Source: Methylotenera versatilis 7 (GTDB taxonomy: Bacteria > Pseudomonadota > Gammaproteobacteria > Burkholderiales > Methylophilaceae). Taken from it: DNA of 64,000 nt. Shown here in pieces: positions 11,898-26,806 of the stretch; position 1 is the first letter of the stretch, and each line of letters starts with the position of its first letter. Location: the NCBI RefSeq assembly GCF_000799165.1, contig NZ_JUGF01000001.1, positions 372,001 to 436,000 on the forward strand. The letters are read 5' to 3'. The notes beneath the pieces were generated by a model that worked only from the letters and a program-made list of their open reading frames with translations, was not told the DNA's origin and made no database searches. The position numbers were made by a program, and so were the translations under genes.

Positions 11898-12950
11898 ATG
11901 TTTCGATTTTACTTTTTGACTGTTTATTTTCTTTTAAATCCGACCGTAATTTGGGCAGAAGAAGCTCAGTCTCCAATAGCTCATTCAATCACTCCAGAGC
12001 AAGTTGCAGTGATTGTTAATTTGCAGGATGCTAATAGCCTTACTGTTGGTGATTATTATATTAATGCGCGAAATATACCCAAGAGCAATCTGATTAAAGT
12101 GGATATTAGCCCCGATATTTCAGTAATGACAGAACAGCAGTTTCTTACTTTACGCACTAATATTTTTGCTCAATTAAATGAAAATATTAAAGTGATCGTT
12201 TTAGCCTGGACGAAACCATTTGCGGTTAACTGTAATTCAATTACTTCAGCAGTGACATTGGGTTATCAAGCTAAACAGTGCGAAAATGGATGTGGCGTAG
12301 GTATCAAAAACCCTTACTTTAATAGCGCCTCGCACAATCCAGAAAAAGATTTCAATATGCGTTTATCAATATTGTTACCAACAGATTCAATTGAAGTCGC
12401 AAAAAACATCATCGACAAAGGTGTATTAAGTGGATTTAAATTAAATGAAGCGACAGCTTATTTTTTAAAAACGACATATGATGCCGCCAGTAAATCGCGT
12501 GAGCCATTTTTCCCAAAAGATCTGACCAGAATTGAATCAAAGAAGTTGTGGATTCGTACCATTAAGGCAGATGTCCTCAAAGATAAGAAAGATATTATGT
12601 TTTATTTTACTGGCACGGCTGAAGTGCCAGATTTAAAAACACTGAATTTTATGCCTGGTGCTATTGCAGATCATTTAACTTCATTTGGCGGTATTTTATC
12701 TAGTGAGCGGAGTACGACAAGCTTGAAATGGCTGGATGCTGGTGTTACGGGGACTTATGGCTCAGTTTCGGAGCCCTGTAACTACTGGCAGAAATTCCCT
12801 AATCCGTCTGTATTGTTAAATCATTATTTGGCTGGAAATACACTGATTGAAGCATATTGGAAAAGTGTTTACTGGCCGACACAGGGTTTGATTATGGGTG
12901 AGCCATTAGCTGCACCATATATGACGCAGTCTTACACTATCAAACCTTAA
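11898..12950 (+). CDS. TIGR03790 family secreted protein
   Basis: A 350-residue protein with an N-terminal signal peptide (FYFLTVYFLLNPTVIWAEE), so it is exported. The mature part begins ITPEQVAVIVNLQDANSLTVGDYYINARNIP and later has AVNCNSITSAVTLGY and LKWLDAGVTGTYGSVSEPC. This matches the uncharacterised TIGR03790 family, which is known mainly from PEP-CTERM/exosortase exopolysaccharide loci. Its function is not known. It lies 29 bases after the WecG-type gene and just before the exosortase gene. Confidence 0.8.
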   Translation: MFRFYFLTVYFLLNPTVIWAEEAQSPIAHSITPEQVAVIVNLQDANSLTVGDYYINARNIPKSNLIKVDISPDISVMTEQQFLTLRTNIFAQLNENIKVIVLAWTKPFAVNCNSITSAVTLGYQAKQCENGCGVGIKNPYFNSASHNPEKDFNMRLSILLPTDSIEVAKNIIDKGVLSGFKLNEATAYFLKTTYDAASKSREPFFPKDLTRIESKKLWIRTIKADVLKDKKDIMFYFTGTAEVPDLKTLNFMPGAIADHLTSFGGILSSERSTTSLKWLDAGVTGTYGSVSEPCNYWQKFPNPSVLLNHYLAGNTLIEAYWKSVYWPTQGLIMGEPLAAPYMTQSYTIKP

Positions 12951-13060
12951 ACTATTAAAAGGAATTGTTTTTTCTTCAGGTTGCAAAGTGCTGGCACTAA
13001 GAGTCCTGTTAGCCCAAGTGGGTTGCTGTAGTCCTAAGTGTAAATTTTGCTGATAAACTA
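12937..13060 (+). promoter_or_regulatory. Candidate structured leader, weakly c-di-GMP-I (GEMM)-like
   Basis: The 128-base gap before the exosortase gene is less AT-rich than other gaps here and holds pairable segments. AACCT (12943-12947) can pair with AGGTT (12978-12982). Then come GCAAAG (12983-12988), ACTAAG (12996-13001), AGCC (13011-13014) and GGTTGC (13021-13026), in the order found in GEMM-I cyclic-di-GMP riboswitches. The GAAA tetraloop expected in the first hairpin is not there and the last hairpin is too long, so this is only a candidate. Confidence 0.25.
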
Positions 13061-13087
13061 ATCGCCATTAATGATTAATTGAATCTC

Positions 13088-14647
13088 ATGGATAACAAAA
13101 AAACTATGCCAAATTTTTTGTCTTTAACCCAAAACCAGAAATGGTTTTTATTTGCTTTGGTGCTTGCATTTGTCGCTTATTTTGGTGGCTTAAGTGATTT
13201 GGTTTCAAGGTGGAATACACAAGAAGAATATGGTCATGGCTACTTTATTCCGCTAATTAGTATTTGGTTTTTGTGGGCCAGAAAAGAAGCGTTACTTGCG
13301 AGTATAGGTGAGTCTTCTTGGGTTGGTCCTGTATTGATTGCCATAGGCGCAGTAGGACTGTTACTTGGCGAACTGACAGCCATATTCGTTTTAATCCAAT
13401 TGAGCTTTTTATTGACCCTTATTGGTTTGGTCTTAGCTTACGGTGGCAAGTCGTTATTAAGAGTTTCATTGTTGCCTATCGCATTTTTAGCATTTGCAAT
13501 CCCATTGCCTTATTTTCTGGGCGCGCAATTATCCTGGCGTTTACAACTCATTTCATCTGACTTGGGCGTGGCATTTTTACGCATATTGGGTAATTCAGTC
13601 TATTTAGAAGGCAATGTAATCGATCTAGGTATATATAAATTACAAGTAGTCGAGGCTTGCAGTGGACTGCGTTATCTATATCCACTATTGAGTATTGGCT
13701 TTTTGATGGCTTATATGTACAAAGGCAAACTCTGGCAAAAAATATTTATCTTCTTATCGACCATACCAATCACTGTCATTATGAACAGTCTGCGTATTGC
13801 CATGGTTGGTGTGTTGGTGAATCGCTGGGGTAATGATATGGCGGACGGCTTTTTACATTACTTTGAAGGCTGGATTATCTTTATGGTTTGTTTGCTTATA
13901 TTAATTCTAGAGGTAGTGATTTTAGAAAAAATAGGGCAAAAGCGCCATTTTTGGCAAGCAGTGGATGTGCCCGTTATACAACCGGTGCACCCTGACAAGC
14001 CTGAGTCCATTGTTAAAAAACCTTTGTATGTCAGTATCGTACTTATTTTAGTGGCTTTAATTGCCGTTAACTTATTAAGTGACCGTGTGGAAATAAAGCC
14101 AGAAAGAAAGCCCTTGGCAACTTTCCCAACAAAAATCGATAATTGGATTGCTAAGGAGTCTAGCTTACCAAAAGATGTGGAAGAGTTTCTGGGTGTAGAT
14201 GACTACCTGTTGGCAGACTATAAGACTGGCAGAGATTCGGTCAATTTCTATGTGGCCTATTACGCCTCTCAACGTAAAGGAGTGTCGCCTCATTCCCCAC
14301 AAGTTTGTATGCCGGGTGGTGGGTGGATCATTTCCTCACTGGATCGTATTACGATTGACGTGGCAGGTAAAAAAGATTTTCATGTAAACCGTACAGTGAT
14401 TAATAAAGATAATCACAGGCAAGTGGTTTATTATTGGTTTGAGCAACGTGGTAGACACATTGCTAACGAGTATTATATGAAGTGGTACTTATTGCTGGAT
14501 TCTATTCAGAGAAACAGAACGGATGGCGCACTGGTACGGGTGACTGCTTATATCCGACCATCTGAATCAATAGAAGCGGCTGATAAGCGTATCCAAGCGT
14601 TTTTAGAAAAAAGCATACCCTTATTGGATACATATGTACCAAAATAA
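13088..14647 (+). CDS. xrt: Exosortase fused to EpsI domain
   Basis: A 519-residue inner-membrane protein. The N-terminal exosortase half has about eight hydrophobic helices and the catalytic triad: Cys191 in VVEACSGLRYL, Arg236 in NSLRIAM and His257 in GFLHYFEGW. The C-terminal half is a periplasmic EpsI domain with HSPQVCMPGGGW at about 402-413. Exosortases cleave the C-terminal PEP-CTERM signal of exported proteins and are tied to exopolysaccharide production. A fused exosortase-EpsI architecture fits some named subtypes (for example XrtD), but I cannot assign the subtype. I chose ATG 13088; an in-frame TTG lies 9 bases upstream and ATG 13106 is also possible. Confidence 0.9.
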   Translation: MDNKKTMPNFLSLTQNQKWFLFALVLAFVAYFGGLSDLVSRWNTQEEYGHGYFIPLISIWFLWARKEALLASIGESSWVGPVLIAIGAVGLLLGELTAIFVLIQLSFLLTLIGLVLAYGGKSLLRVSLLPIAFLAFAIPLPYFLGAQLSWRLQLISSDLGVAFLRILGNSVYLEGNVIDLGIYKLQVVEACSGLRYLYPLLSIGFLMAYMYKGKLWQKIFIFLSTIPITVIMNSLRIAMVGVLVNRWGNDMADGFLHYFEGWIIFMVCLLILILEVVILEKIGQKRHFWQAVDVPVIQPVHPDKPESIVKKPLYVSIVLILVALIAVNLLSDRVEIKPERKPLATFPTKIDNWIAKESSLPKDVEEFLGVDDYLLADYKTGRDSVNFYVAYYASQRKGVSPHSPQVCMPGGGWIISSLDRITIDVAGKKDFHVNRTVINKDNHRQVVYYWFEQRGRHIANEYYMKWYLLLDSIQRNRTDGALVRVTAYIRPSESIEAADKRIQAFLEKSIPLLDTYVPK

Positions 14648-14688
14648 TTAGATTACTTGATAATTTATATTAATTAAGAAGACCGAAC

Positions 14689-17070
14689 ATGAAAAAACCT
14701 ATTTCCAATTTACTGATTGCACTTTGTTTAACCGTAATCGTCAGCGGTTGCTCTACTCCCGAAGAAAAGGCGGAGAAGTATTATCAGAAAGGTATGGAGT
14801 TACTGGAAACAGATCCTGATAAAGCGAAACTAGAGTTTCAAAATGCGCTGCAATTGAAAAAGAGCATGCCTAAGGCAATGTACGCACTAGGCTTGATTGC
14901 AGAGCGTAAAGGTGATTTTAAAGCGACTTATGGTTTAATGAATGAGGTCATTGAAAAAGACCCTAAGCATATTGATGCCTTGGTTAAAACGGGGCAAATA
15001 TTATTGGCGGCCGGTAAGGTGGATCTTGCGCTTGAAAGAAGTAATAAAGCGTTTGAAGTCGATAAAAACAATGTTGCTGCGCTCAATTTACGTGCTGCCA
15101 TACAGTTAAAATTGAACGATACAAAAGGCGCGCTTGAGTACGCAAATTTAGCGTTACGCAAAGATCCTGATAATCAGGATGCATATATCTTATTAGCAAC
15201 TGAGCGATTATCCGCAAAAGATAATATCAAAGCACTTGAGTATCTAGACAAGGCTGTGAGTAAAGATGAGAAAAATCTAGCAGTACAGTTGATTCGAATC
15301 AAAGTGCTGGAAGATTTATCCAAGGTTGCAGAAGCAGATCAGTCTTTTCAAAAACTAATTAAATTGTTTCCAGATAAGACAGTAGCAAGAAAAAGCTATG
15401 CGCAGTTTCTGCTTAAATATAATCGTCAGCCAGAGGCTGAACAACAACTACGCGCGATTGCAGAAATTTCACCCGACTTACAATCAAAACTAGATATCGT
15501 TCGATTTGTTATTGCCGCTAAAGGCAAAGATGCAGGTCGTCTGGAATTAGAAAATTTCGTTAAAAAGGAGCCTGAGAATTATGAGTTAGCTTTTGCTCTG
15601 GTTAACTTATACCAAGTGCAAAAAATGCCTCAGCAGGAAGATCAGTTGCTAGATCAAATCAAGCAAAAAGCCGGCAAGACTGCTGATGGATATAAAGCGC
15701 AGAGTATGATTGCTTATAAACTGATTCAGGCAGGTAAAAAAGAAGAGGCAAGCAAAATACTAAACGCAATTATTGAGGCTGACAAAAGTAATGGGCAGGC
15801 ATTAACGTTAAGAGCAGGCTTAGCCTTGGAAGCTAAAAATTATGATGCTGCTATTATTGATTTAAGAACTGTAACACGCGATTCCCCTACAGCATACAAT
15901 GCGCTTGTCATGCTGGCTTCTGCGCATGAGAACTCCGGTTCGCCAGAACTTGCAGAAGAGCATTACCTTAAAGCGTTTGAAACAAGTAAATTTTCACCGA
16001 CCTACGGCATTCCATATGCACAGTTTTTAATGCGCCGTAAACAGCCGGAGCGCGCCGAAAAAGTGTTTGAAGACATGTTGGCTGCTCATCCAGACAACGC
16101 GGCTGTGATGAGCTCACTTGCGCAGGCTAAAATTGCGCGCGGCGATTATGCTGGCGCGCAAGCACTGGCAGATAAAGCAAAAAATCTGAAAGATAACAAG
16201 CTATTGGCCGACCAAATACAAGGTGCTATTTCAACAGGCCAAAATGATTTCGAAAGCGCTTTAAGTGCCTTTAAGCGTGCGCATGAAGCTGCCCCAAATG
16301 AAGCGCAACCCATTGTTGCAATTGTTAGAACCTATATGCGCTCCGGTAAAACTAAAGAAGCTCTTGCCTTTATAGATACCGTTTTAAAAGACAACCCTAA
16401 TAATACTGAAGCGCAATTAATCAAAGGACAGATTCTTCTTGGTTCTGGCAATACACAAGGTGCGCAGCAAGTGTTCTCTAATGTGATACTTACAAACCCA
16501 AAAAATCCCGCAGGTTATCAACAGCTTGCACTTGCACAACAGCGGGGAAATCAGCCTGATGAGGCCGAAAAAACGATTCAAAATGGTTTAACCGCGATAC
16601 CAAAAGACTTTGGTTTAATGCTCACCCAAGCAGGATTATATGAGGCTGCTAATCGTATAGAGGATGCTATAAAAGTATATGAGGATTTGTTGAAAGAGCG
16701 TCCGGGTGTTGAAATTGTGAATAACAATTTAGCAAGTCTTTTGTTAGATTATCGTAGTGATCAAGCCAGTTTTACGCGTGCTCATACCTTGGCTAAAGAT
16801 TTAAAAAATAGTACAACGCCGCAATTTTTAGATACTTTTGGCTGGGCTAGCTATAAAATTGGTGAGTTTAGTGCTGCTGAAAAGGCATTAAAATCAGCAG
16901 TTGAAAAATCGCCTGAGATTGCTGTGTTTCAGTATCATTTGGCCAAAATTTATATTGCTAGAAATGATACTGCTTCGGCAAAACAGGCATTACAAAAATC
17001 TATTAAATTGGCTGAAAATCAGCAGTTCCCTCAAAAAGATGATGCAATTGCATTACTTAAAACTTTATAG
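14689..17070 (+). CDS. prsT: PEP-CTERM system TPR-repeat lipoprotein (PrsT-like)
   Basis: A 793-residue lipoprotein. The signal peptide ends in a lipobox (IVSGC, lipidated Cys21), and the mature protein begins with STPEEKAEKYYQKGMELL. The rest is an array of tetratricopeptide repeats (for example AKLEFQNALQLKKSMPKAMY, GALEYANLALRKDPDNQDAY) running to the C-terminus, a scaffold for protein contacts in the periplasm. Size and position after an exosortase match the PrsT family (TIGR02917, about 900 residues), although this copy is somewhat short. It probably helps the polysaccharide export or assembly complex. Confidence 0.88.
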   Translation: MKKPISNLLIALCLTVIVSGCSTPEEKAEKYYQKGMELLETDPDKAKLEFQNALQLKKSMPKAMYALGLIAERKGDFKATYGLMNEVIEKDPKHIDALVKTGQILLAAGKVDLALERSNKAFEVDKNNVAALNLRAAIQLKLNDTKGALEYANLALRKDPDNQDAYILLATERLSAKDNIKALEYLDKAVSKDEKNLAVQLIRIKVLEDLSKVAEADQSFQKLIKLFPDKTVARKSYAQFLLKYNRQPEAEQQLRAIAEISPDLQSKLDIVRFVIAAKGKDAGRLELENFVKKEPENYELAFALVNLYQVQKMPQQEDQLLDQIKQKAGKTADGYKAQSMIAYKLIQAGKKEEASKILNAIIEADKSNGQALTLRAGLALEAKNYDAAIIDLRTVTRDSPTAYNALVMLASAHENSGSPELAEEHYLKAFETSKFSPTYGIPYAQFLMRRKQPERAEKVFEDMLAAHPDNAAVMSSLAQAKIARGDYAGAQALADKAKNLKDNKLLADQIQGAISTGQNDFESALSAFKRAHEAAPNEAQPIVAIVRTYMRSGKTKEALAFIDTVLKDNPNNTEAQLIKGQILLGSGNTQGAQQVFSNVILTNPKNPAGYQQLALAQQRGNQPDEAEKTIQNGLTAIPKDFGLMLTQAGLYEAANRIEDAIKVYEDLLKERPGVEIVNNNLASLLLDYRSDQASFTRAHTLAKDLKNSTTPQFLDTFGWASYKIGEFSAAEKALKSAVEKSPEIAVFQYHLAKIYIARNDTASAKQALQKSIKLAENQQFPQKDDAIALLKTL

Positions 17071-17090
17071 CGGTAGTCTGGACAACAAAC

Positions 17091-17909
17091 ATGTATGAAA
17101 GCTTTTATGGTTTAAAAGAAAAACCTTTTTCAATTCAACCAGATCCGGAATTTTTATTTTTTAGCCTTCGCCATAGCATGGCATATGCCATGCTGGAGTA
17201 TGGTGTACAAAATCGCGCCGGATTTTCTGTGATTTGCGGTGAGATAGGATGCGGAAAAACCACATTAGTACGCCATTTACTGAATAATTTAGGCGATGAG
17301 TTAACGGTAGGTATTGTTTACAACACGCACGAGCATATTGACGATTTGTTAGGCTGGATAATGCTTTCGTTTAATCAACCGTATGAGGGCAAATCCAATT
17401 TAGCCTTGTACGATGCATTTCAGCAGTTTCTAATTAAATGCTATAGCGAAAATAAGCGTGTTGTGCTGATTGTCGATGAAGCGCAGAATCTAAGCCCGGC
17501 AGCGCTGGAATCGTTGCGCATGTTATCGAACATTAACGCGGATAAAGATCAGCTCTTACAAATTATATTGGTTGGGCAGCCACAATTAAGAGATTTACTC
17601 CGCAGGCCAGATTTACAGCAGTTTTTTCAACGTGTTTCGGTGGACTTTTTTATTCCGCCATTACAGTCTTTTGAAGCGGATAAATACATTCATCACCGCC
17701 TGCATGTTGCCGGGCGCGATACGCTTTTGTTTACACCTGCGGCAACGCGTTTAATTGGCGAAGCAGCTAGAGGTATTCCACGTAGTATTAATATCCTTTG
17801 TGATACTGCACTTGTGTATGGTTATTCGACCAATGCGGAGAAAATTGATGTCGGGTTAGTGCGTGAAGTGATTAAAGATAGGGCAGAATTTGGTGTCTTA
17901 GGTATTTAG
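17091..17909 (+). CDS. XrtA/PEP-CTERM-associated AAA ATPase (ExeA/GspA-like)
   Basis: A 272-residue AAA ATPase with the N-terminal MYESFYGLKEKPFSIQPDPE typical of the TIGR03015 secretion ATPase of PEP-CTERM loci. It has Walker A GEIGCGKT (50-57), Walker B VVLIVDEAQ (about 124-132) and a sensor region with GQPQLRDLLRRPDL (about 163-176). It follows the TPR lipoprotein by 20 bases and closes the + strand exopolysaccharide block. It probably powers or regulates export of the polysaccharide together with outer-membrane parts encoded upstream of the window. Confidence 0.9.
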   Translation: MYESFYGLKEKPFSIQPDPEFLFFSLRHSMAYAMLEYGVQNRAGFSVICGEIGCGKTTLVRHLLNNLGDELTVGIVYNTHEHIDDLLGWIMLSFNQPYEGKSNLALYDAFQQFLIKCYSENKRVVLIVDEAQNLSPAALESLRMLSNINADKDQLLQIILVGQPQLRDLLRRPDLQQFFQRVSVDFFIPPLQSFEADKYIHHRLHVAGRDTLLFTPAATRLIGEAARGIPRSINILCDTALVYGYSTNAEKIDVGLVREVIKDRAEFGVLGI

Positions 17910-18466: not shown

Positions 18467-18788
18467 AATCAGTTGTTCTCAGCTAAGGTAATAACGATAT
18501 TATTGACTACGATTGTCTCACAACCATTTAAGGATTACTTACATCTGCGTTAATCAATAAGGTAGCAAATTTACAACTACAAACAAGGGTATGGGAGTAT
18601 GTTGAAACAAGTGTAGGCAAGCCCTCACCACTTGATATCAAAATTGTTGGCTATTTAATTTTCGAAATTTGTTAGTGCTTAAAATTTTATAACATCAATA
18701 ATTTGAATATTAAAGGACGTTATATTTCATTTTTATTGAATATTGATTGGGCGGATAATGCGACTGTAATCATATATACAGAGGCAAT
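18467..18788. other. Gene-free gap between ybaK-like gene and rubredoxin
   Basis: About 320 bases of AT-rich DNA between the divergent ybaK-like and rubredoxin genes. The first 230 bases show no open frame with coding character and no clear RNA. The last 85 hold the conserved operator-like motif described separately and an ATAATGC element at 18755-18761 that could serve as part of a -10 region. Confidence 0.6.
18705..18747 (+). promoter_or_regulatory. Conserved operator-like motif upstream of rubredoxin, shared with cysJ
   Basis: This 43-base block matches 19899-19940 upstream of cysJ at 36 of 42 aligned positions with one single-base gap. Common cores are AATATTAAA, TTATATTTCATT and TTATT plus AATATT. 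AATATT recurs at both ends, giving a partial dyad. ATAATGC follows in both copies at a similar distance. Two promoters sharing such a block on either side of a LysR gene suggests one regulator for both. Confidence 0.6.
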
Positions 18789-18992
18789 ATGGAAGTTTGG
18801 CAGTGTGTAATTTGTACTTTAATTTACGATGAGGCTATAGGCTATCCAAAATTGGGGATCAGTCCTGGCACGCCCTGGCATGAACTTCCTGACTACTGGA
18901 AATGTCCTGATTGCGGTGCGAATAAGGCGAATTTTGAATCTATTCCTATTGAGGAATATTTGAATCAAATGTTTATATTAGGTGAGGACTAA
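18789..18992 (+). CDS. Rubredoxin
   Basis: A 67-residue rubredoxin, a small cytoplasmic electron carrier with one iron held by four cysteines. The ligands are Cys6 and Cys9 (QCVICTLIYDE) and Cys39 and Cys42 (KCPDCGANK), with the expected GYPKLGISPGTPW loop between them. The C-terminus is about 12 residues longer than minimal rubredoxins. It shares a promoter motif with cysJ 1.2 kb away, so it may supply electrons to, or be co-induced with, the sulfite reductase. Partner is inferred only. Confidence 0.92.
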   Translation: MEVWQCVICTLIYDEAIGYPKLGISPGTPWHELPDYWKCPDCGANKANFESIPIEEYLNQMFILGED

Positions 18993-19030
18993 AGTGGATT
19001 TGAATGGCCAGGCTTCTCTCATGCTTTGAG

Positions 19031-19879
19031 CTAGCGCTGTGACCAATTAGCTTCCTCGATCGCTACAGTCTTTAAAACGGTTAATACTTCTGTCATTAAC
19101 GTGCTGAGTTTGTTTCTTGGGTAGACCAAATAGATGGGGTAAGAAAATTCTGGCGCTTGAGGCACCAGTTCAAGAATACCTTCGTTGATATATTGTTGCA
19201 CTACTCGAGTACGAAAATAGCCGCTACCGCCATTTTCAAGTAGGTAGTGGAGTGCTAGGGGGCCTAAATTCAACGATAGCTGATTGTGAGAATATTCTGC
19301 AAGGGCAGTATTGTGTTGCTGGTTAAAGTCGTCACCCCAGTCCACGTAGATGTATGGGCCAGATTTCCTAACCGATCTCACAAGAACTAATTTTTCTTCT
19401 AACAATTGTTCAACTTGCATTCCTGGCCAATAATCAGGCTGATGTACCAAGGCTGCATCCATTGCACCAATTTCTAATTTTTGATGGAGTGTTCTCGTTT
19501 CACCTACTTCCGCACGTATGGCGAGAGAAGGCAAATGACTGCGAATAGCGCCAAGCCAGTTCAAAAGTAATGGGTTCCATAAACTAATTTCACCTCCAAT
19601 TGTGATTAGATCAATCGACCCGATTGGCAAAGGTAAGTCTTTACGTGCCATTTCCCATATTTGAACAAGCTGGCTGGCATGAGTGACAAACCTTTTTCCG
19701 TTTTCAGTCAGCTTAGCTCCACTTCTGTTGCGTATAAATAATCTGCAGTTTAATAGCTCCTCTAAATGTTGTATGCGAGCGGTTACTGTGGTTTGAGTGA
19801 TATGTAACCGCTCGGCAGCCTGAATAAAGCTACCTGTTCGAATGATTTCAAGAAAAGTAAGAGCAAGGTTGATGTCCAT
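19031..19879 (-). CDS. LysR-family transcriptional regulator
   Basis: A 282-residue LysR-type regulator. The N-terminal winged helix-turn-helix is clear (LALTFLEIIRTGSFIQAAERLHITQTTVTARIQHLEELLN, residues about 4-44, seen in two parts), followed by a substrate-binding domain ending near residue 280. It is transcribed divergently from cysJ and lies between cysJ and the rubredoxin gene. A LysR protein in this position commonly controls the divergent operon; the shared motif at 18705 and 19899 is its likely target. The inducer is unknown; a sulfur compound such as sulfite is a plausible guess. Confidence 0.88.
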   Translation of the reverse strand: MDINLALTFLEIIRTGSFIQAAERLHITQTTVTARIQHLEELLNCRLFIRNRSGAKLTENGKRFVTHASQLVQIWEMARKDLPLPIGSIDLITIGGEISLWNPLLLNWLGAIRSHLPSLAIRAEVGETRTLHQKLEIGAMDAALVHQPDYWPGMQVEQLLEEKLVLVRSVRKSGPYIYVDWGDDFNQQHNTALAEYSHNQLSLNLGPLALHYLLENGGSGYFRTRVVQQYINEGILELVPQAPEFSYPIYLVYPRNKLSTLMTEVLTVLKTVAIEEANWSQR

Positions 19880-19898
19880 CGGTATATATCGAAATATT

Positions 19899-19940
19899 TA
19901 ATATTAAAAGCCATTATATTTCATTATTATTAATATTAAT
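19899..19940 (+). promoter_or_regulatory. Conserved operator-like motif upstream of cysJ, shared with rubredoxin
   Basis: The partner of the motif at 18705-18747. It lies in the 105-base gap between the LysR start and cysJ, about 20 bases from the LysR start codon, so it could serve both autoregulation and cysJ activation. AATATT is repeated at both ends (19900-19905 and about 19932-19937), and ATAATGC follows at 19949-19955. Confidence 0.6.
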
Positions 19941-19984
19941 AACATTTCATAATGCTGGTTTATGAATAAAAGTACAGAAATGAT

Positions 19985-21724
19985 ATGACCGTCAGTTTAG
20001 CGGTAGATGTATTCAATGATAAAAAGTGGCAAGAGATACAACTCTTGTTGCAAACGTTGGATGCTCGCCAAATGACATGGCTAAGTGGATATTTGGCAGG
20101 TCAAAGTAATAAGACTGTTGAAACAGAGCCGCCAATTGTTAATGAGCCTGAAGTGTTGGTGGCTTATGGATCTGAAACCGGAAATTGTGAAAAACTAGCG
20201 CGCCAACTGGAGGCACTGGCGCGGGCGGAAAATATAAAAGTCGTCGTTAGAGATCTTGCGTATATATACCCGCGCCAATTAAGCAAACAATCTCATGTGC
20301 TATTCATTTGCAGCACGCATGGTGATGGTGACCCGCCAGAATCAATAAAGAATTTCTATGCATCTTTAATGGATGCTAAAGCTGCGAGATTGCCAAATTT
20401 ACGCTATGCAGTTCTATCATTGGGAGATAGCACCTACGAACATTTTTGTGCAACCGGAAAACAACTGGATGAGCGATTTGCTTCTTTAGGTGGTACGCGT
20501 CTTACTTTTAGGCAGGATTGTGATGTTGATTACCATGGTGCTGCAAAGTTGTGGATGGAAGAAGTCTTAAAACTCATCCCGCGTAGTGAATCGGTAGAAA
20601 GCACGACTAGGCAACATATCGAGCAATCTGAAAAGATTACAAAAAGTAATCCGTTATTAACAACAGTTCTGAGTAATACCCGATTGAGTAGCATCAGTCG
20701 CACTAATCCCGTTCATCATATTGAGCTGTCGATTGATAGCAAAAGAGTTTCATTAGCGCCAGGCGATGCGATTGGTGTTCTGGTACGAAACCCAGATTCT
20801 TTGGTAGATGAAGTCTTAGAAGCCGCTAGTATGAAACGCGATGAAGTTGTGACAATCAATCACAGAACAACCCGCTTGGATATGGTGCTTGCGGAAGACT
20901 GTGATTTAACCATCCCAAGTAACAAGTTTATTGAGATGTGGAGTCAGGTGGCTTTGAGTGCAGATTTAACTGCAATAGCTAATCTAGAACATAGCGAAAA
21001 AAAGAATTTTTTAAAAACGTATCAAGTGCTGGACATCATCAAGAAGTTTCCAGCAAAAGTAGATGCACAACGTTTTGTGGATCATTTACGACCGCTGCAG
21101 CCACGTTTATATGATGTTGCTAACAGTATCAATCTTGTCGAAGATGAAGTTCACCTCACGGTCAAAAAATACACTTATGAGTTTCAGGATAGAGTTGAAG
21201 AGGGCGTGGCTTCAGCACATTTGGTTGATATTAAAGAGAACGATCAACTAAGGATATATCCATATCGAAACTCTCGTTTTCATTTACCCGAAGCATTAGA
21301 TGTGCCGTTGATATTAATTGCTGATAGTACAGGAATAGCACCGTATCGATCTTTTATTCAAGAGCTGCAGCTAGGTATAAGAACACATCCATGCTGGTTG
21401 ATTTTTTCTGAAGAGCAATACGAAGAAGATTTTCTGTATCAAGTAGAGCTACAAAAAGCGATGGAGCTAGGTATTTTGAAGCGTATTGATACCTTTTTTT
21501 ATCACGAGCAATTAGATAGTTCACTGGGTAAGACGGTAGTTGAACAATTTGACTTACTTATAGACTGGTTAAAGCAAGGAGCACATATTTATCTATGTGG
21601 GGACAAGCAGCTTTTGACCGAATGTGAAATTGAAATGACTTCCTGGCTAATGAATAGCGGTAAACATGAAGTGAGTTGGCAGTCTTTGGATAGCAGCCAT
21701 CGCATACACAGGAATTTGTATTAG
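19985..21724 (+). CDS. cysJ: Sulfite reductase flavoprotein subunit (CysJ-like)
   Basis: A 579-residue diflavin reductase that passes electrons from NADPH through FAD and FMN to the sulfite reductase hemoprotein. It has an N-terminal helix, a flavodoxin domain (VAYGSETGNCEKLARQLEALA, about 58-78; CSTHGDGDPPESIKNFY), then an FAD-binding part (RPLQPRLYDVANS, about 366-378) and an NADP-binding part (STGIAPYRSFIQE; YLCGDKQLL), ending in the aromatic Tyr expected at the flavin. The flavin motif reads RLYDVANS where CysJ usually has RLYSIASS, and STGIAPY replaces GTGIAPF. Its stop overlaps the cysI start by one base. Confidence 0.9.
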   Translation: MTVSLAVDVFNDKKWQEIQLLLQTLDARQMTWLSGYLAGQSNKTVETEPPIVNEPEVLVAYGSETGNCEKLARQLEALARAENIKVVVRDLAYIYPRQLSKQSHVLFICSTHGDGDPPESIKNFYASLMDAKAARLPNLRYAVLSLGDSTYEHFCATGKQLDERFASLGGTRLTFRQDCDVDYHGAAKLWMEEVLKLIPRSESVESTTRQHIEQSEKITKSNPLLTTVLSNTRLSSISRTNPVHHIELSIDSKRVSLAPGDAIGVLVRNPDSLVDEVLEAASMKRDEVVTINHRTTRLDMVLAEDCDLTIPSNKFIEMWSQVALSADLTAIANLEHSEKKNFLKTYQVLDIIKKFPAKVDAQRFVDHLRPLQPRLYDVANSINLVEDEVHLTVKKYTYEFQDRVEEGVASAHLVDIKENDQLRIYPYRNSRFHLPEALDVPLILIADSTGIAPYRSFIQELQLGIRTHPCWLIFSEEQYEEDFLYQVELQKAMELGILKRIDTFFYHEQLDSSLGKTVVEQFDLLIDWLKQGAHIYLCGDKQLLTECEIEMTSWLMNSGKHEVSWQSLDSSHRIHRNLY

Positions 21725-23436
21725 TGAGTATAAGAATGGATAAAAACTTAACGCTTGAGAATGAAATTTCACAGGTTGTCGATCAGTTGCCGCCCTATGA
21801 GCAGTTCAAATTCAATAGTAACTTTCTTAGAGGCACCATTCTTGATGGGTTGAAACGTGCCGATACCGGAGCTGTTCCGGGGCAAGATCCTCTGCTCATG
21901 AAGTTTCATGGCATCTACCAGCAAGATAATCGGGATATTAGATCGAATCGAGCCGAAAGAAAGCTTGAGCCAGCATATCAGTTTATGGTGAGGTTAAGGA
22001 TTCCTGGCGGATTCTTAACCGCCAAACAGTGGTTAGGACTAGATAAAATATCCAGAAAATTTTCGGAACGAGGCCTGAGGATTACTACTCGCCAGACAAT
22101 TCAATTTCATGGGATACGTAAAAAAAATCTGCAGCCATTTATGAGGGCAATTCGGGATATTGGGCTTGATACCATTGCTGCGTGCGGTGATGATAGCCGT
22201 GGCGTTGTTTGTGGGTCAAATCCGGAGTTATCTCACGTACACCATCAAGTATTTAATCTGGCAAAAGAAACCAGTAAAAGATTGATTCCAAAAACTGGAG
22301 CTTACTCTGAAGTTTGGTACGGTGAGAAAAGTATAAGTAATTTGGCTAATTCAAACGAAGATCCTGTTTATACCAAATTATATTTACCGCGAAAATTTAA
22401 AGTAGGTTTTGTTATCCCGCCAAGCAATGACATTGATGTTTATGGCCAGGATGTCGGTTTTATTGCGATTGTAAAAAATAAGAAGCTATTAGGTTTTAAT
22501 TTGTGTGTTGGCGGAGGTATGGGAAAAATCTACAGCAGGTCAGATAGTTATCCGCGATTAGCCGAACAGATTGGTTTTATAAAAGCAGCAGAAGCATCAG
22601 CGGTTGCTGAAATCATCATGACGATACAGCGTGATTACGGAAGTAGAGAAGATCGTCATCAGGCCAGATTTAAATACACATTAGACAGGCTAGGTAATAA
22701 GTGGTTTTTAGAGATATTAGCGAAACGGAGAGGAAAAGCATTAGAGCCAGCGAAACCATTTGAATTTACCCATAACAGTGATCCAACAGGCTGGCAGCAA
22801 GGTGATGATGGGCGATGGCATGGAACATTACAAATTGAAAGTGGCAGAATCGATGGTGCACTTCAAGATAAATTAGCCGGATTTTTCCAACAGTTTGATG
22901 GAGATATTAGACTTACTCCGAATCAAAATCTTCAGCTTGTTAATGTGAATGCCTATTCACTCGCTCAGACTAAGTGGCGCCTAGATGATATTGGACTTAG
23001 CGAGCATCTGGCACATCAAAGCCAAGCGGCACACACCATGAGTTGCGTGGCACTACCTACATGTGGATTGGCGATGGCTGAGGCCGAGCGCTATCTACCT
23101 AACTTTAAAGTATTGTTTGATTCTTTAAAGTCGGCTCATGGACTTTACGATGAGCCAATCACACTTCGTATCACTGGTTGTCCTAATGGCTGTGCAAGAC
23201 CTTATTTAGCAGAAATAGCACTTACCGGACGTGCCTTAGGGCTTTATAACCTTTATTTAGGTGGCAGTTATATCGGCAACAGGCTGGCAAAACTATATGC
23301 CAGCAATGTCAATGAACATCGAATTGTTGAGATATTAAATCGTCTGTTCGGAAAGTACGCTAATGAGCGCAGATTGGATGAAAAATTTGGTGATTTTTTA
23401 GTGCGCAATGAATTATTGGACCAGCAAAAACCTTAA
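21724..23436 (+). CDS. cysI: Sulfite reductase hemoprotein subunit (CysI)
   Basis: A 570-residue siroheme and 4Fe-4S enzyme that reduces sulfite to sulfide by six electrons in assimilatory sulfur metabolism. The cluster-binding cysteines are visible as SCVALPTC (about 440-447) and GCPNGC (about 484-489). The siroheme-binding arginine-rich part (RLRIPGGFLTAKQW; TTRQTIQFHGI) is also present. Length matches the E. coli protein (570). It starts at GTG overlapping the end of cysJ; an in-frame ATG 12 bases on is an alternative. No cysH, cysD or cysN lies nearby, so the pathway is split in this genome. Confidence 0.94.
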   Translation: MSIRMDKNLTLENEISQVVDQLPPYEQFKFNSNFLRGTILDGLKRADTGAVPGQDPLLMKFHGIYQQDNRDIRSNRAERKLEPAYQFMVRLRIPGGFLTAKQWLGLDKISRKFSERGLRITTRQTIQFHGIRKKNLQPFMRAIRDIGLDTIAACGDDSRGVVCGSNPELSHVHHQVFNLAKETSKRLIPKTGAYSEVWYGEKSISNLANSNEDPVYTKLYLPRKFKVGFVIPPSNDIDVYGQDVGFIAIVKNKKLLGFNLCVGGGMGKIYSRSDSYPRLAEQIGFIKAAEASAVAEIIMTIQRDYGSREDRHQARFKYTLDRLGNKWFLEILAKRRGKALEPAKPFEFTHNSDPTGWQQGDDGRWHGTLQIESGRIDGALQDKLAGFFQQFDGDIRLTPNQNLQLVNVNAYSLAQTKWRLDDIGLSEHLAHQSQAAHTMSCVALPTCGLAMAEAERYLPNFKVLFDSLKSAHGLYDEPITLRITGCPNGCARPYLAEIALTGRALGLYNLYLGGSYIGNRLAKLYASNVNEHRIVEILNRLFGKYANERRLDEKFGDFLVRNELLDQQKP

Positions 23437-23469: not shown

Positions 23470-23796
23470 ATGTCGCGATATTTTTTTATACAAAGCCAGG
23501 ATATTTTCACGGAGGTGCGAACTAACGCCCAGTTTAACTTAGCCAAGAGCTTAGCTAAAAAGGGCAATTCCGTATCAATTCTTCTTGTGCAGAACGGAGT
23601 GGTTGCGGCTAGAAAAGGTGCGCGTAGCGCGCAAATGGACGCTTTATTAAATGATTCAGTCACTGTGCTGGCTGATAATTTTTCATTGGAACAAAGAGAG
23701 ATAAATGTCAATAATTTGAAGCCGAATATTAAGGTTTCTACAATTAATGTAGTGATTGATGCCTTGTTAAATGGCGATAAAGTGATTTGGAATTAG
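23470..23796 (+). CDS. DsrE-like small protein 1
   Basis: A 108-residue protein with a DsrE-like alpha/beta shape: RYFFIQSQDIFTEVRTNAQFNLAKSLAKKGNSVSILLVQNGV at the start and a C-terminal VVIDALLNGDKVIW. No cysteine is present, so it cannot itself carry sulfur as the catalytic DsrE/TusD subunits do. It sits 33 bases after cysI and 9 bases before a cysteine-rich DsrE-family gene, so it probably forms a complex with the next two products. An AGGAG ribosome site precedes its ATG. Confidence 0.6.
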   Translation: MSRYFFIQSQDIFTEVRTNAQFNLAKSLAKKGNSVSILLVQNGVVAARKGARSAQMDALLNDSVTVLADNFSLEQREINVNNLKPNIKVSTINVVIDALLNGDKVIWN

Positions 23797-23805
23797 GGAA
23801 TATAT

Positions 23806-24219
23806 ATGAGTAACAGAAAAACGATCACCTTTGCATTTATGGATCCGCCTTTTGAAAATGAGCGGACTGTCACATTCTTCCGTTTATTAGATGCTGCTTT
23901 AGAGACGGGAGCTAATGTCAAAGTATTTGCTTATGAAGGGGCCGCAGCCTTGTCTTTTGCATTACAGAAAGCGCATGGTAACGCTGTGCATGGCAGAAAT
24001 GAGACGGATGAAGATCATCCATTGACCAAAAATTGGATAGCAGCTTTACAAACTAAGGCGGCTTCGAAAGATTTGCAGTTTGACTGGGTAAATTGTGGCC
24101 TGTGTGTTGATGAACGAGGAGTCAATGAATGTATTAGTGGATGCGGTAGAGGCTCACCGGCAGATCTGCTGCGTTACGCGACAGCATCAGATAACACATT
24201 AATTATTGGTACCAGATAA
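23806..24219 (+). CDS. DsrE-family protein with four-cysteine motif
   Basis: A 137-residue DsrE-family protein. The N-terminus (ITFAFMDPPFENERTVTFFRLLDAAL) and the central KVFAYEGAAALSFAL segment match the alpha/beta fold of sulfur-relay proteins. Near residues 104-121 it has C-x2-C-x8-C-x3-C (CGLC then CISGC), which could bind a metal or form redox disulfides. The family moves sulfur as persulfide in DsrEFH and TusBCD complexes. Here, directly downstream of cysJI, it may handle the sulfide made by the reductase. This link is inference. Confidence 0.7.
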   Translation: MSNRKTITFAFMDPPFENERTVTFFRLLDAALETGANVKVFAYEGAAALSFALQKAHGNAVHGRNETDEDHPLTKNWIAALQTKAASKDLQFDWVNCGLCVDERGVNECISGCGRGSPADLLRYATASDNTLIIGTR

Positions 24220-24221
24220 TC

Positions 24222-24602
24222 ATGAAAATTTTACAAGTAGTTGAACAGGCTTTTCGAACCATTGTTGAGGAGCAAGACGACACCATTTTGTGGCTTACTC
24301 AGTCAATGATCAGTGCTGGCGGAGATTTGGAAGTATTGCTGACTGGAAATTGTGCATATTACGTAATTTTAAAACAACGACAACCAAGCTTGACGCTAGG
24401 CAGTTGGAAGCAAACGGAACCCGCAGAACTAAACCGAGATATAACAAATCTTTTAGAGAAAAAGATACCAGTTTATGTTTTACATGAAGAGTTACTTGAA
24501 CGCGGTCTTTTAGATACCCCAGTACACGAGGATATACAAGTAATTAATCATGACCAGTTGCTGGATATTTATGATCGTGTTGATCAGGTGTGGCAATGGT
24601 AG
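24222..24602 (+). CDS. DsrE-like small protein 3
   Basis: A 126-residue protein beginning MKILQVVEQAFRTIVEEQDD, with LWLTQSMISAGGDLEVLLTGNCAYYVIL resembling the DsrE/DsrH/TusB core, and a single cysteine in GNCAYY (about residue 46). The C-terminal half (IPVYVLHEELLERGLLDTPV) has the hydrophilic pattern seen in DsrE-like proteins. It begins 2 bases after the previous gene and ends the cysJI-dsrE-like operon. I cannot assign it to DsrE, DsrF or DsrH. Confidence 0.65.
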   Translation: MKILQVVEQAFRTIVEEQDDTILWLTQSMISAGGDLEVLLTGNCAYYVILKQRQPSLTLGSWKQTEPAELNRDITNLLEKKIPVYVLHEELLERGLLDTPVHEDIQVINHDQLLDIYDRVDQVWQW

Positions 24603-24807: not shown

Positions 24808-26748
24808 TTAGATTTTATGGCGCTTTAATGACGTAAAGTAATTAAAGCTAAAACCGAAAAGTGCGACTATTAACACTAGCATCTGTGCGAACATGGTTTC
24901 TGCTGTTGGGTGCATACCTAATAGTGGTATGCGCGGCCAGGTGAAGGGAGTAACGCCAATCCATCCTGCCTCTTGTAGAGCAATGCTCCCTTTGCCTATC
25001 AGAATCACAGCCAACACCATCACTAAAACCGATGTAATTGAGAAAAATTTACCAATCGGCATAATTGCGCTGGTACGTAGCATTGCCCAAGCGATGATGA
25101 CCAATAACAAAATAGCTGTTAGAAATCCAGCTAATAATGCGCCACTATTCCCGTCAGTTGCAAGTGCGGAGTAGAAAAGAACTGTTTCAAAAACTTCGCG
25201 ATACACTGCAATAAATGACAAAGCGAATAAAGCCCATGCAGTCCGCCGAAACATCGCAGCAGATAACTTTTCGTGAAGGTAAGCTTGCCATCTTCCTGCG
25301 CTACTTTTTTGATGCATCCACAACCCAACTGTTAATAAAACGATTGCAGCAAATATAGACCCAGCCCCTTCAGTCACCTCTCTACTTGCGCCACTGATCG
25401 TGACCAAATAAGTCGCTATCACCCAAGTTAAAGCACCAGCGAACAATGCACTAACCCATCCGGAATGAACATATCGCAGCACATCAGGACGCTCTGCTTT
25501 TTTCAAAAACGCAATGATACCGATAACTATCAGAAGCGCTTCAACACCTTCTCGGAGCAGAATGGTCAGAGCCCCTATAAAGGTTGTCATTGGGTCGACT
25601 TCTTTTTTACCCATTTCTTCGTCTACGTCAGCAAAGAGCCTATTCAGATTTTCTGCGGCCGCCTCTGCTTCCGAAACGGTGCCCTTGGCTATAGCAGAAC
25701 GGTATGCCAACATTGCTCCTTCGACAGCAATCAGTAGCGACTTGTTACGCGCACCAATTGTTGGTTCAAGCGGTTCGAAACCATCTAAATATGCTGATAA
25801 ACCGAGTTTCATCGCAGCTGCTCGGTCACCAGAATGTAGCGCTGTTAAACTTTCTGAGAGTCGCAATCGTGATAAAGCAACACCAGCGGGTTTGAGCTCT
25901 TCTACTACGCCTGGGCTATTGCGAAGATAAGCTGTAATGTCGCGTGCGTTTGTTGACAGCATTTTTTGGGCGAGACTGTCTTGCGTTAATGTGGTAACGG
26001 CAGCTAAATCTGGAAAAAGGGTTTTAATATCGGGGGATTCTTTCCACAGCTTTTCACCTTGCGCACGCATTGCATCGTTATATGAGATGCTGCCGATGAA
26101 AAAAGCTAATGCCCAGCGGTCATCATCCGTTAGGCTTGCAAAGCTTGGCATTGAGGTGCCCTCAACACCTTGTGATATCACTTGATAAAGCGCCATCAGA
26201 CTTCTTGATTGCGCTCTTTCTTGATCAGTAAATGCAATCGGTTTAGGATCCAGAGCGGCGGCCAAAGGCCCGTTTCCGTCACCTTTTGACCCATGGCATG
26301 AAGCACATTGTGCGTTATATAGCATGCTTCCTTTGGAAAGATTGGGAGCTTTTTTAGGCGCTACAGGTATTGGATAAGCTGCAATGAGTTTTGTATTGGC
26401 TAGATGAGCCAGGCGCTTAACATCAGAAGCATCAGTCTTACTTACAACAGCAGAGCGTAAATCAGCTATTGCGGTAGCAATAGCATCTTTCGAAGCATTA
26501 GCAGGTAAAGACTGTATCTGTAGTGTCGCATTATTGGTGAAGTCGAGCATTTCTGCATATTCTGCTTCACTTACCACTGTTCCTTTATTAACAGCGCCGC
26601 CATAATCCACTGCAACATAATCAATTAACTGCCACAGTTGCTTTGCGCCATTATCTGATGCTGTTGTTTCTGCTAAGGACGTCCCAGGTGACAATATGAA
26701 ACATGCCAAGATCATCAATATTCTTGTCATGTTGACTTTAAAATCCAT
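24808..26748 (-). CDS. Cytochrome c/FTR1 iron permease
   Basis: A protein of about 646 residues joining a periplasmic part and an iron permease. After a signal peptide (ILMILACFILSPGTSLAE) comes a cytochrome c domain with CASCHG at about residue 148, then a helical linker, then an FTR1-type permease with about seven membrane helices. The permease bears the two iron-binding REGVE and REVFE motifs. FTR1 proteins take up iron after oxidation of Fe(II); the fused heme domain may supply the oxidising step. An in-frame TTG 12 bases earlier is a weaker start; ATG 26748 has GAGA just upstream. It follows mntP by about 80 to 95 bases. Confidence 0.88.
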   Translation of the reverse strand: MDFKVNMTRILMILACFILSPGTSLAETTASDNGAKQLWQLIDYVAVDYGGAVNKGTVVSEAEYAEMLDFTNNATLQIQSLPANASKDAIATAIADLRSAVVSKTDASDVKRLAHLANTKLIAAYPIPVAPKKAPNLSKGSMLYNAQCASCHGSKGDGNGPLAAALDPKPIAFTDQERAQSRSLMALYQVISQGVEGTSMPSFASLTDDDRWALAFFIGSISYNDAMRAQGEKLWKESPDIKTLFPDLAAVTTLTQDSLAQKMLSTNARDITAYLRNSPGVVEELKPAGVALSRLRLSESLTALHSGDRAAAMKLGLSAYLDGFEPLEPTIGARNKSLLIAVEGAMLAYRSAIAKGTVSEAEAAAENLNRLFADVDEEMGKKEVDPMTTFIGALTILLREGVEALLIVIGIIAFLKKAERPDVLRYVHSGWVSALFAGALTWVIATYLVTISGASREVTEGAGSIFAAIVLLTVGLWMHQKSSAGRWQAYLHEKLSAAMFRRTAWALFALSFIAVYREVFETVLFYSALATDGNSGALLAGFLTAILLLVIIAWAMLRTSAIMPIGKFFSITSVLVMVLAVILIGKGSIALQEAGWIGVTPFTWPRIPLLGMHPTAETMFAQMLVLIVALFGFSFNYFTSLKRHKI

Positions 26749-26806
26749 AATTTTTCTCAATCATTTAATTTAAACTATTAGTAACGCTAGATTCAAGTGT
26801 ACACAT

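Follow-up and report, generated by a model that had tools for sequence, protein, structure and literature searches.

The promoters of a rubredoxin gene and of a cysJI-dsrE operon in Methylotenera versatilis 7, which lie on either side of a lysR gene, carry the same element, and this element recurs in relatives from two proteobacterial classes. From the comparison of these promoters it is highly probable that the LysR protein co-controls rubredoxin and cysJI. The best explanation overall, to which we give a probability of roughly 60%, is a LysR regulon in which a supernumerary CysJI-DsrE system and a rubredoxin would act against respiratory-poison stress.

Likeness of the rubredoxin and cysJ promoters

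The analysed DNA, called the window here, was a 64-kb stretch of contig NZ_JUGF01000001.1 (372,001-436,000, forward strand). The genes of interest were ordered as ybaK-like (-), rubredoxin (+), lysR (-), cysJ (+), cysI (+) and three DsrE-type genes (Table 1). The preliminary description had reported that positions 18705-18747 match positions 19899-19940 at 36 of 42 positions with one gap, with lysR located between rubredoxin and cysJ and divergent from cysJ. Local alignment reproduced this match exactly, and the geometry was correct. The likeness was also beyond chance, as had been claimed: the whole intergenic regions aligned with a score of 30, whereas 2000 dinucleotide shuffles gave a mean of 12.4 (sd 1.9) and never exceeded 23. 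The reported block needed one correction. The element common to relatives was an ungapped box of about 31 bases together with a -10 hexamer at equal spacing in both promoters, and the gapped tail (AATATT after the gap) was not conserved in relatives.

Table 1 Predicted sites and genes of the rubredoxin-lysR-cysJI-dsrE locus, in window positions
Feature	Position	Strand	Basis
LysR box, rubredoxin promoter (predicted)	18704..18734	+	sequence comparison, pattern and matrix scans
-10 hexamer GATAAT, rubredoxin promoter	18754..18759	+	distance to box same as in cysJ
Rubredoxin, 67 aa, C-terminal extension	18789..18992	+	PF00301 69 bits, cut-off 23
LysR-family regulator, HdfR-like	19031..19879	-	HTH_1 68.2 bits (cut-off 26.6), LysR_substrate 59.6 (cut-off 28); NF002946 117 bits, cut-off 240
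LysR box, lysR-cysJ intergenic region (predicted)	19898..19928	+	conservation in relatives
-10 hexamer CATAAT, cysJ promoter	19948..19953	+	same spacing from box
CysJ-like diflavin reductase	19985..21724	+	three domains; TIGR01931 469 bits, under cut-off 668
CysI-like siroheme reductase hemoprotein	21724..23436	+	NF010029 686 bits (cut-off 457); TIGR02041 672 (cut-off 757)
DsrE-family protein 1	23470..23796	+	PF02635 35.5 bits, cut-off 22.7; found at 21/21 cluster loci
DsrE-family protein 2	23806..24219	+	PF02635 30.8 bits, cut-off 22.7; 69-78% identity across 21/21 cluster loci
DsrE trio protein 3	24222..24602	+	no Pfam match; TIGR03011 21.7 bits, under cut-off 49; 21/21 cluster loci

A degenerate 32-mer with up to 3 mismatches occurred twice in the window, where 100 shuffles gave an expectation of 0. 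Across the 2.5-Mb genome it was exact at these two promoters, with one further site of 3 mismatches. This third match (G000:C2:849203; E=0.036, covering only columns 1-36 of the sequence model R1 described below) was taken as chance; it lies in a gap flanked by genes that we take to be cydA-like and ammonium-transporter-like. When the two promoters were compared in blocks of 20 bases, 16/20 and 15/20 positions were identical across the box, compared with 3-10/20 outside it, over 120 bases upstream and 100 downstream. Because the identity is confined to the box, it is unlikely that the promoter was recently duplicated as a whole. It is true that both regions are AT-rich and that the -10 columns by themselves are not distinctive, but the shuffle tests, the conservation in two classes and the restriction of identity to the box make it very improbable that the likeness is a chance product of AT-rich DNA, or a trace of recent duplication, with no regulatory meaning.

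Conservation of the box and the predicted wider regulon

A scan of genome contigs with an alignment of DsrE2 yielded 21 loci, and the contig scan with LysR alone gave no match. The order lysR-cysJ-cysI-dsrE1-2-3 was observed at 19 of these loci, and the other two ended inside cysJ at a contig end. Four genomes (G041, G059, G071 and G129) correspond to loci L112, L108, L100 and L106, respectively, and each was counted once. The window and 19 loci together provided 20 lysR-cysJ promoters, with near-copies among them (effective number 13), from Methylophilaceae (5), Methylophaga, Alcanivorax, Alloalcanivorax, Zhongshania, Halioglobus, Sediminihaliea and two gammaproteobacterial MAGs. All 20, from beta- and gammaproteobacteria, contained the same ungapped box, with a consensus of roughly ATATTAAA-N5-TTATATTTCATTATT, and, at constant spacing from it, either CATAAT or CATACT (20/20). 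Activating, self-regulating LysR sites typically lie immediately before the -10 element and beside a divergent lysR gene, and the box found here appears to resemble such a site.

A rubredoxin gene was located beside lysR at 3 of 20 loci, namely in the window, in Methylobacillus rhizosphaerae (L100) and in M. caricis (L108), all of them Methylophilaceae (3 of 5 loci in that family). No separate rubredoxin gene was found beside lysR at the remaining 17, at one of which (L101) the sequence on that side spans just 1.2 kb. The rubredoxin is followed by a 5-formyltetrahydrofolate cyclo-ligase gene in L108 and, by homology, likewise in L100. All three rubredoxin promoters aligned to the box, with the -10-like hexamers GATAAT, CATAAT and TATGAT at the same distance; in M. 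caricis about 250 bases separate the box from the start of rubredoxin. Thus the box and its -10 spacing occur before both genes, and beside lysR, in three species. The preliminary description had proposed that the motif be sought in related genomes, where its absence from relatives with both genes would count against the link. The motif withstood this comparison, with the box in 20/20 lysR-cysJ promoters and in 3/3 promoters of adjacent rubredoxins.

Matrix scans of both strands of the window and the 21 loci (885,140 positions) gave a similar picture. With a matrix built from 20 weighted cysJ sites, the training sites ranked 1-20 and the rubredoxin sites 21-23 of 885,140, although the latter, at 39.3, 19.4 and 4.6, scored below the cysJ sites (51 to 65), the two Methylobacillus sites (19.4 and 4.6) being weak. 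A matrix built from the 13 gammaproteobacterial cysJ sites placed the rubredoxin sites at ranks 1, 2 and 3 among non-cysJ positions when the box columns were used, and at ranks 1, 2 and 4 when all columns were used; with the -10 columns only, two of them ranked 1200 and 2122 and that of L108 fell outside the first 5000. A 60-column sequence model (R1), built from 18 of the 20 cysJ promoters after exclusion of the near-copies L101 and L113, matched cysJ (E=1.1e-9) and rubredoxin (E=7.5e-7) in the window's genome, the next match having E=0.036. The Methylobacillus rubredoxin sites were absent among the best candidates (at most 150 per genome) that R1 gave in 19 cluster genomes at E up to 10, and likewise in family genomes at E 0.001. 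One conserved box before both gene sets means that rubredoxin and cysJI are very probably switched on together, and the promoters, with the box in 20/20 for cysJ and 3/3 for adjacent rubredoxins (two of them weaker), strongly support the co-control by LysR that had been predicted.

Several candidates were set aside. Weak R1 matches before a dehydrogenase-like gene (G514, L150; E 0.002) and inside a gene (G510, L151; E 0.006) were not used, nor were weaker ones. A rubredoxin match beside lysR in Methylophaga sp. OBS4 (L095) proved to be the C-terminal domain of a flavorubredoxin, with no upstream matrix match above 6.

The box was also found in front of other genes. Together with the -10 element, it is located upstream of ccoN in G020 by about 200 bases (a matrix match that is not among the model matches at E 0.001) and upstream of a ccoNOP-type operon in Methylobacillus sp. 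MM3 by about 350 bases, where a short ORF intervenes. Two Methylobacillus genomes have it immediately ahead of a gene for a small membrane protein. In G048 and G080, the box adjoins lysR relatives (66% and 60% identity) and stands in front of an MFS gene and of that membrane-protein gene. Among 187 family genomes there were 10 matches with E <=1.3e-4, in 7 genomes, and each of these also has a lysR relative at least about 60% identical. Matches with E from 2.0e-4 to 7.7e-4 (G895, G002, G016), whose flanks contain no lysR relative, were taken as chance.

The small membrane protein is about 135 aa long (L201:6056-6475, L200:5802-6209, L221:1046-1456 and L191:3689-4036, all on the minus strand), and one copy, when tested, had no Pfam or NCBIfam match. 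The genomes with the box just before its gene were G071/G513, G059/G519 and G080, and a homologue is located near HPP and hemerythrin genes in G147.

Proteins of the cluster and neighbouring genes

The window rubredoxin belongs clearly to the rubredoxin family but, at 67 aa and with a C-terminal extension, is not of the 54-aa housekeeping type. A total of 56 rubredoxin matches were found in 120 family genomes, 53 of them outside this regulon; all 28 of the latter that were examined were 54 aa long and had no C-terminal extension. The three regulon rubredoxins (67, 68 and 74 aa) have [DE]E[YH]L in common in the extension, which is predicted to be helical over residues 54-63 (from a three-row alignment; pLDDT averaging 88 in the best model and 55 in the worst). 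In the tree they grouped with moderate support (88/61), although long branches meet there. Neither a flavodiiron protein over cut-off nor a rubredoxin-binding reductase domain was found in the window's genome. A further rubredoxin match in the same genome (G000:C1:775626-778231) is separated by about 2 kb from a different match to the LysR family, and a similar closeness recurs in several genomes of the genus.

The regulator has both domains of the LysR family and falls below the cut-off for HdfR (Table 1). CysJ contains the flavodoxin, FAD and NAD domains and is best described as CysJ-like and divergent. CysI passes one of two family cut-offs and aligns over its full length with E. coli CysI, including the active-site region, in which we take the aligned cysteines and basic residues to be catalytic. 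Since this region aligns, sulfite may be the true substrate of CysI. A Pfam search of the window's genome exposed two further SiR-type genes, each followed by what is presumably a DUF934-type gene, and one nirB-sized gene; a protein search with CysI had listed only the cluster gene in each of 14 genomes. The cluster CysJI is therefore supernumerary. The complete genome G007, of the same genus and without this cysJ, has one SiR-type gene and one nirB-sized gene.

The DsrE trio scored below the cut-off for TusBCD/DsrEFH (TIGR03011, 22.8 and 21.7 bits against 49.2). Two of the three proteins passed the general Pfam DsrE cut-off, and protein 3 had only a weak TusB/DsrH match. Among 369 searched genomes of the class, three more dsrE trios appeared (L213, L214 and L215; DsrE2 57% identical), all without cysJI, a lysR relative or the box. 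In both neighbourhoods that were examined (L214 and L215), the trio adjoins a metallo-hydrolase that is presumably a persulfide dioxygenase.

Comparison of gene neighbourhoods showed that ccoN follows dsrE3 at all six Methylophaga loci, and that a nitronate monooxygenase Pfam-family gene follows the cluster at 17/17 gammaproteobacterial loci and 0/4 Methylophilaceae loci. Flavorubredoxin NorV and NorW genes (NCBIfam names) are located beside lysR in Methylophaga sp. OBS4, and Hmp-type genes flank three further loci, so that the raw count for Hmp or NorVW is 4 of 21 cluster loci. A TM_HPP gene adjoins a more distant LysR relative in 8 of 11 non-family genomes; one of these 8 also has Hmp and Rrf2-type genes, and another a hemerythrin gene and the small membrane-protein gene. 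HPP proteins are known as nitrite transporters. The lysR relative of G020 is surrounded by Hmp, an Rrf2-family gene and a globin gene. No HPP, Hmp, hemerythrin, Rrf2-type, ccoN or NorV gene was found in the 64-kb window at E 1e-6.

The LysR genes of L191-L198 have 40-42% identity, and 8 of 9 genomes have a TM_HPP gene adjoining. The LysR and TM_HPP genes of L192 flank a partial box (matrix 16.7), which suggests a possible related regulator family with a drifted box.

Proposed role, alternatives and known systems

We infer that the LysR protein binds the dyad-like box that immediately precedes the -10 element and, in response to an inducer, activates two transcripts, one for cysJI-dsrE1-2-3 and one for the specialised rubredoxin. 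The operon would yield a supernumerary NADPH-type siroheme reductase together with sulfur-carrier-like DsrE proteins. In relatives, ccoN accompanies the non-assimilatory siroheme reductase, and HPP, Hmp, NorVW and hemerythrin genes occur as neighbours; this pattern suggests stress from NO/nitrite or cyanide. The system may thus answer poisons of heme and iron enzymes and of respiration, most likely NO or nitrite and possibly cyanide; CysJI would act either on nitrite or NO-type compounds, by reducing them, or in repair, as a source of reduced sulfur. Rubredoxin would contribute a further one-electron carrier to this poison response. Whether the role of the regulon is such a response (to NO/nitrite, perhaps cyanide) rather than sulfate assimilation is, in our estimate, evenly balanced. 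The framing by sulfur sources in the preliminary description is doubtful and probably incomplete, because CysJI is an extra siroheme reductase and because the wider regulon and the neighbours in relatives fit respiratory-poison stress.

LysR regulators of the CysB type are known to control cysJI. A less likely explanation is a sulfur regulon, in which a CysL/CysB-like LysR protein would sense a sulfur metabolite and control a second NADPH-dependent sulfite reductase with DsrE carriers, and rubredoxin would be a helper. The alignment with E. coli CysI through the active-site region, the DsrE trio at 21/21 cluster loci and the metallo-hydrolase, presumably persulfide dioxygenase-like, in the two examined neighbourhoods of the three gammaproteobacterial dsrE trios that lack cysJI are consistent with it. 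Excerpts of PMC5322559 also describe CysL of B. subtilis as a LysR-family protein that activates cysJI and name CysB alongside it, which leaves some room for a sulfur role. This explanation is weakened by the two other SiR-type genes beside DUF934-type genes in the genome, and by the ccoN, HPP, Hmp, NorVW and nitronate-monooxygenase-type neighbours in relatives, which are unlike those of sulfate assimilation.

It is rather improbable that rubredoxin and CysJI form one enzyme system, with rubredoxin carrying electrons from CysJ or to CysI. The conserved co-control and the C-terminal extension common to the three regulon rubredoxins would fit such contact, and in a genome without a rubredoxin-binding reductase CysJ is one possible electron donor and thus one candidate partner of rubredoxin. 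However, co-control is not contact, and an adjacent rubredoxin is absent from 17 of 20 cluster loci, which indicates that CysJI, as a rule, does without rubredoxin. The electron-transfer partnership with sulfite reductase that had been suggested was therefore not borne out. Also improbable is the fuller form of the idea, in which the rubredoxin, through a dedicated C-terminal docking helix, would work directly with a stress-specific CysJI and DsrE sulfur relay, as a new NADPH-flavoprotein-rubredoxin-siroheme route that clears NO/nitrite (or cyanide) or repairs damage, under a previously undescribed poison-sensing LysR protein.

The system can be compared with several known ones. It resembles CysL and CysB in the LysR-family control of a cysJI operon, but the window regulator is HdfR-like and divergent from cysJ, the box additionally precedes rubredoxin and, among relatives, ccoN, an MFS gene and the small membrane-protein gene, and in the window a DsrE trio follows and other SiR-type genes exist. 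Text from PMC12688703 describes PA4129-34 of Pseudomonas aeruginosa as cyanide-inducible and regulated by MpaR, with NirA as a cyanide-tolerant nitrite reductase and CcoN4 as a cyanide-resistant oxidase subunit. The likeness to that system is one of gene grouping, a non-assimilatory siroheme reductase with a CcoN subunit, here in the clusters of relatives (6/6 Methylophaga loci, absent from the window). The differences are that MpaR belongs to another regulator family and that the window cluster has a CysJ partner, a DsrE trio and a rubredoxin.

NorVW, as named by NCBIfam for the Methylophaga sp. OBS4 proteins beside lysR, uses rubredoxin in NO defence, but the window rubredoxin is a free protein of 67 aa in a genome without a flavodiiron protein over cut-off or a rubredoxin-binding reductase. 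As in TusBCD/DsrEFH, three DsrE-family-like genes stand in a row, but the matches of the window trio are weak or under curated cut-offs, and the trio is joined to CysJI. The usual partners of DsrEFH/TusBCD are DsrAB or TusE. Among the titles and abstract openings listed in literature searches, none described a rubredoxin-cysJ-LysR link or a DsrE cluster of this type.

In two proteobacterial classes, a small regulon with precise predicted sites would thus tie an extra CysJI to a specialised rubredoxin and, among relatives, to oxidase subunits. It cautions against reading every cysJI annotation as sulfate assimilation, and it may offer a tractable system for the physiological role of a bacterial rubredoxin.

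Elsewhere in the window, a gene on the opposite strand that adjoins the dsrE genes (24808-26760, -) reads as a cytochrome c/FTR1-type iron permease fusion-like protein, and positions 11898-17909 read as an exosortase/PEP-CTERM-like locus with an exosortase-like protein, a large TPR lipoprotein and an ExeA-like ATPase.
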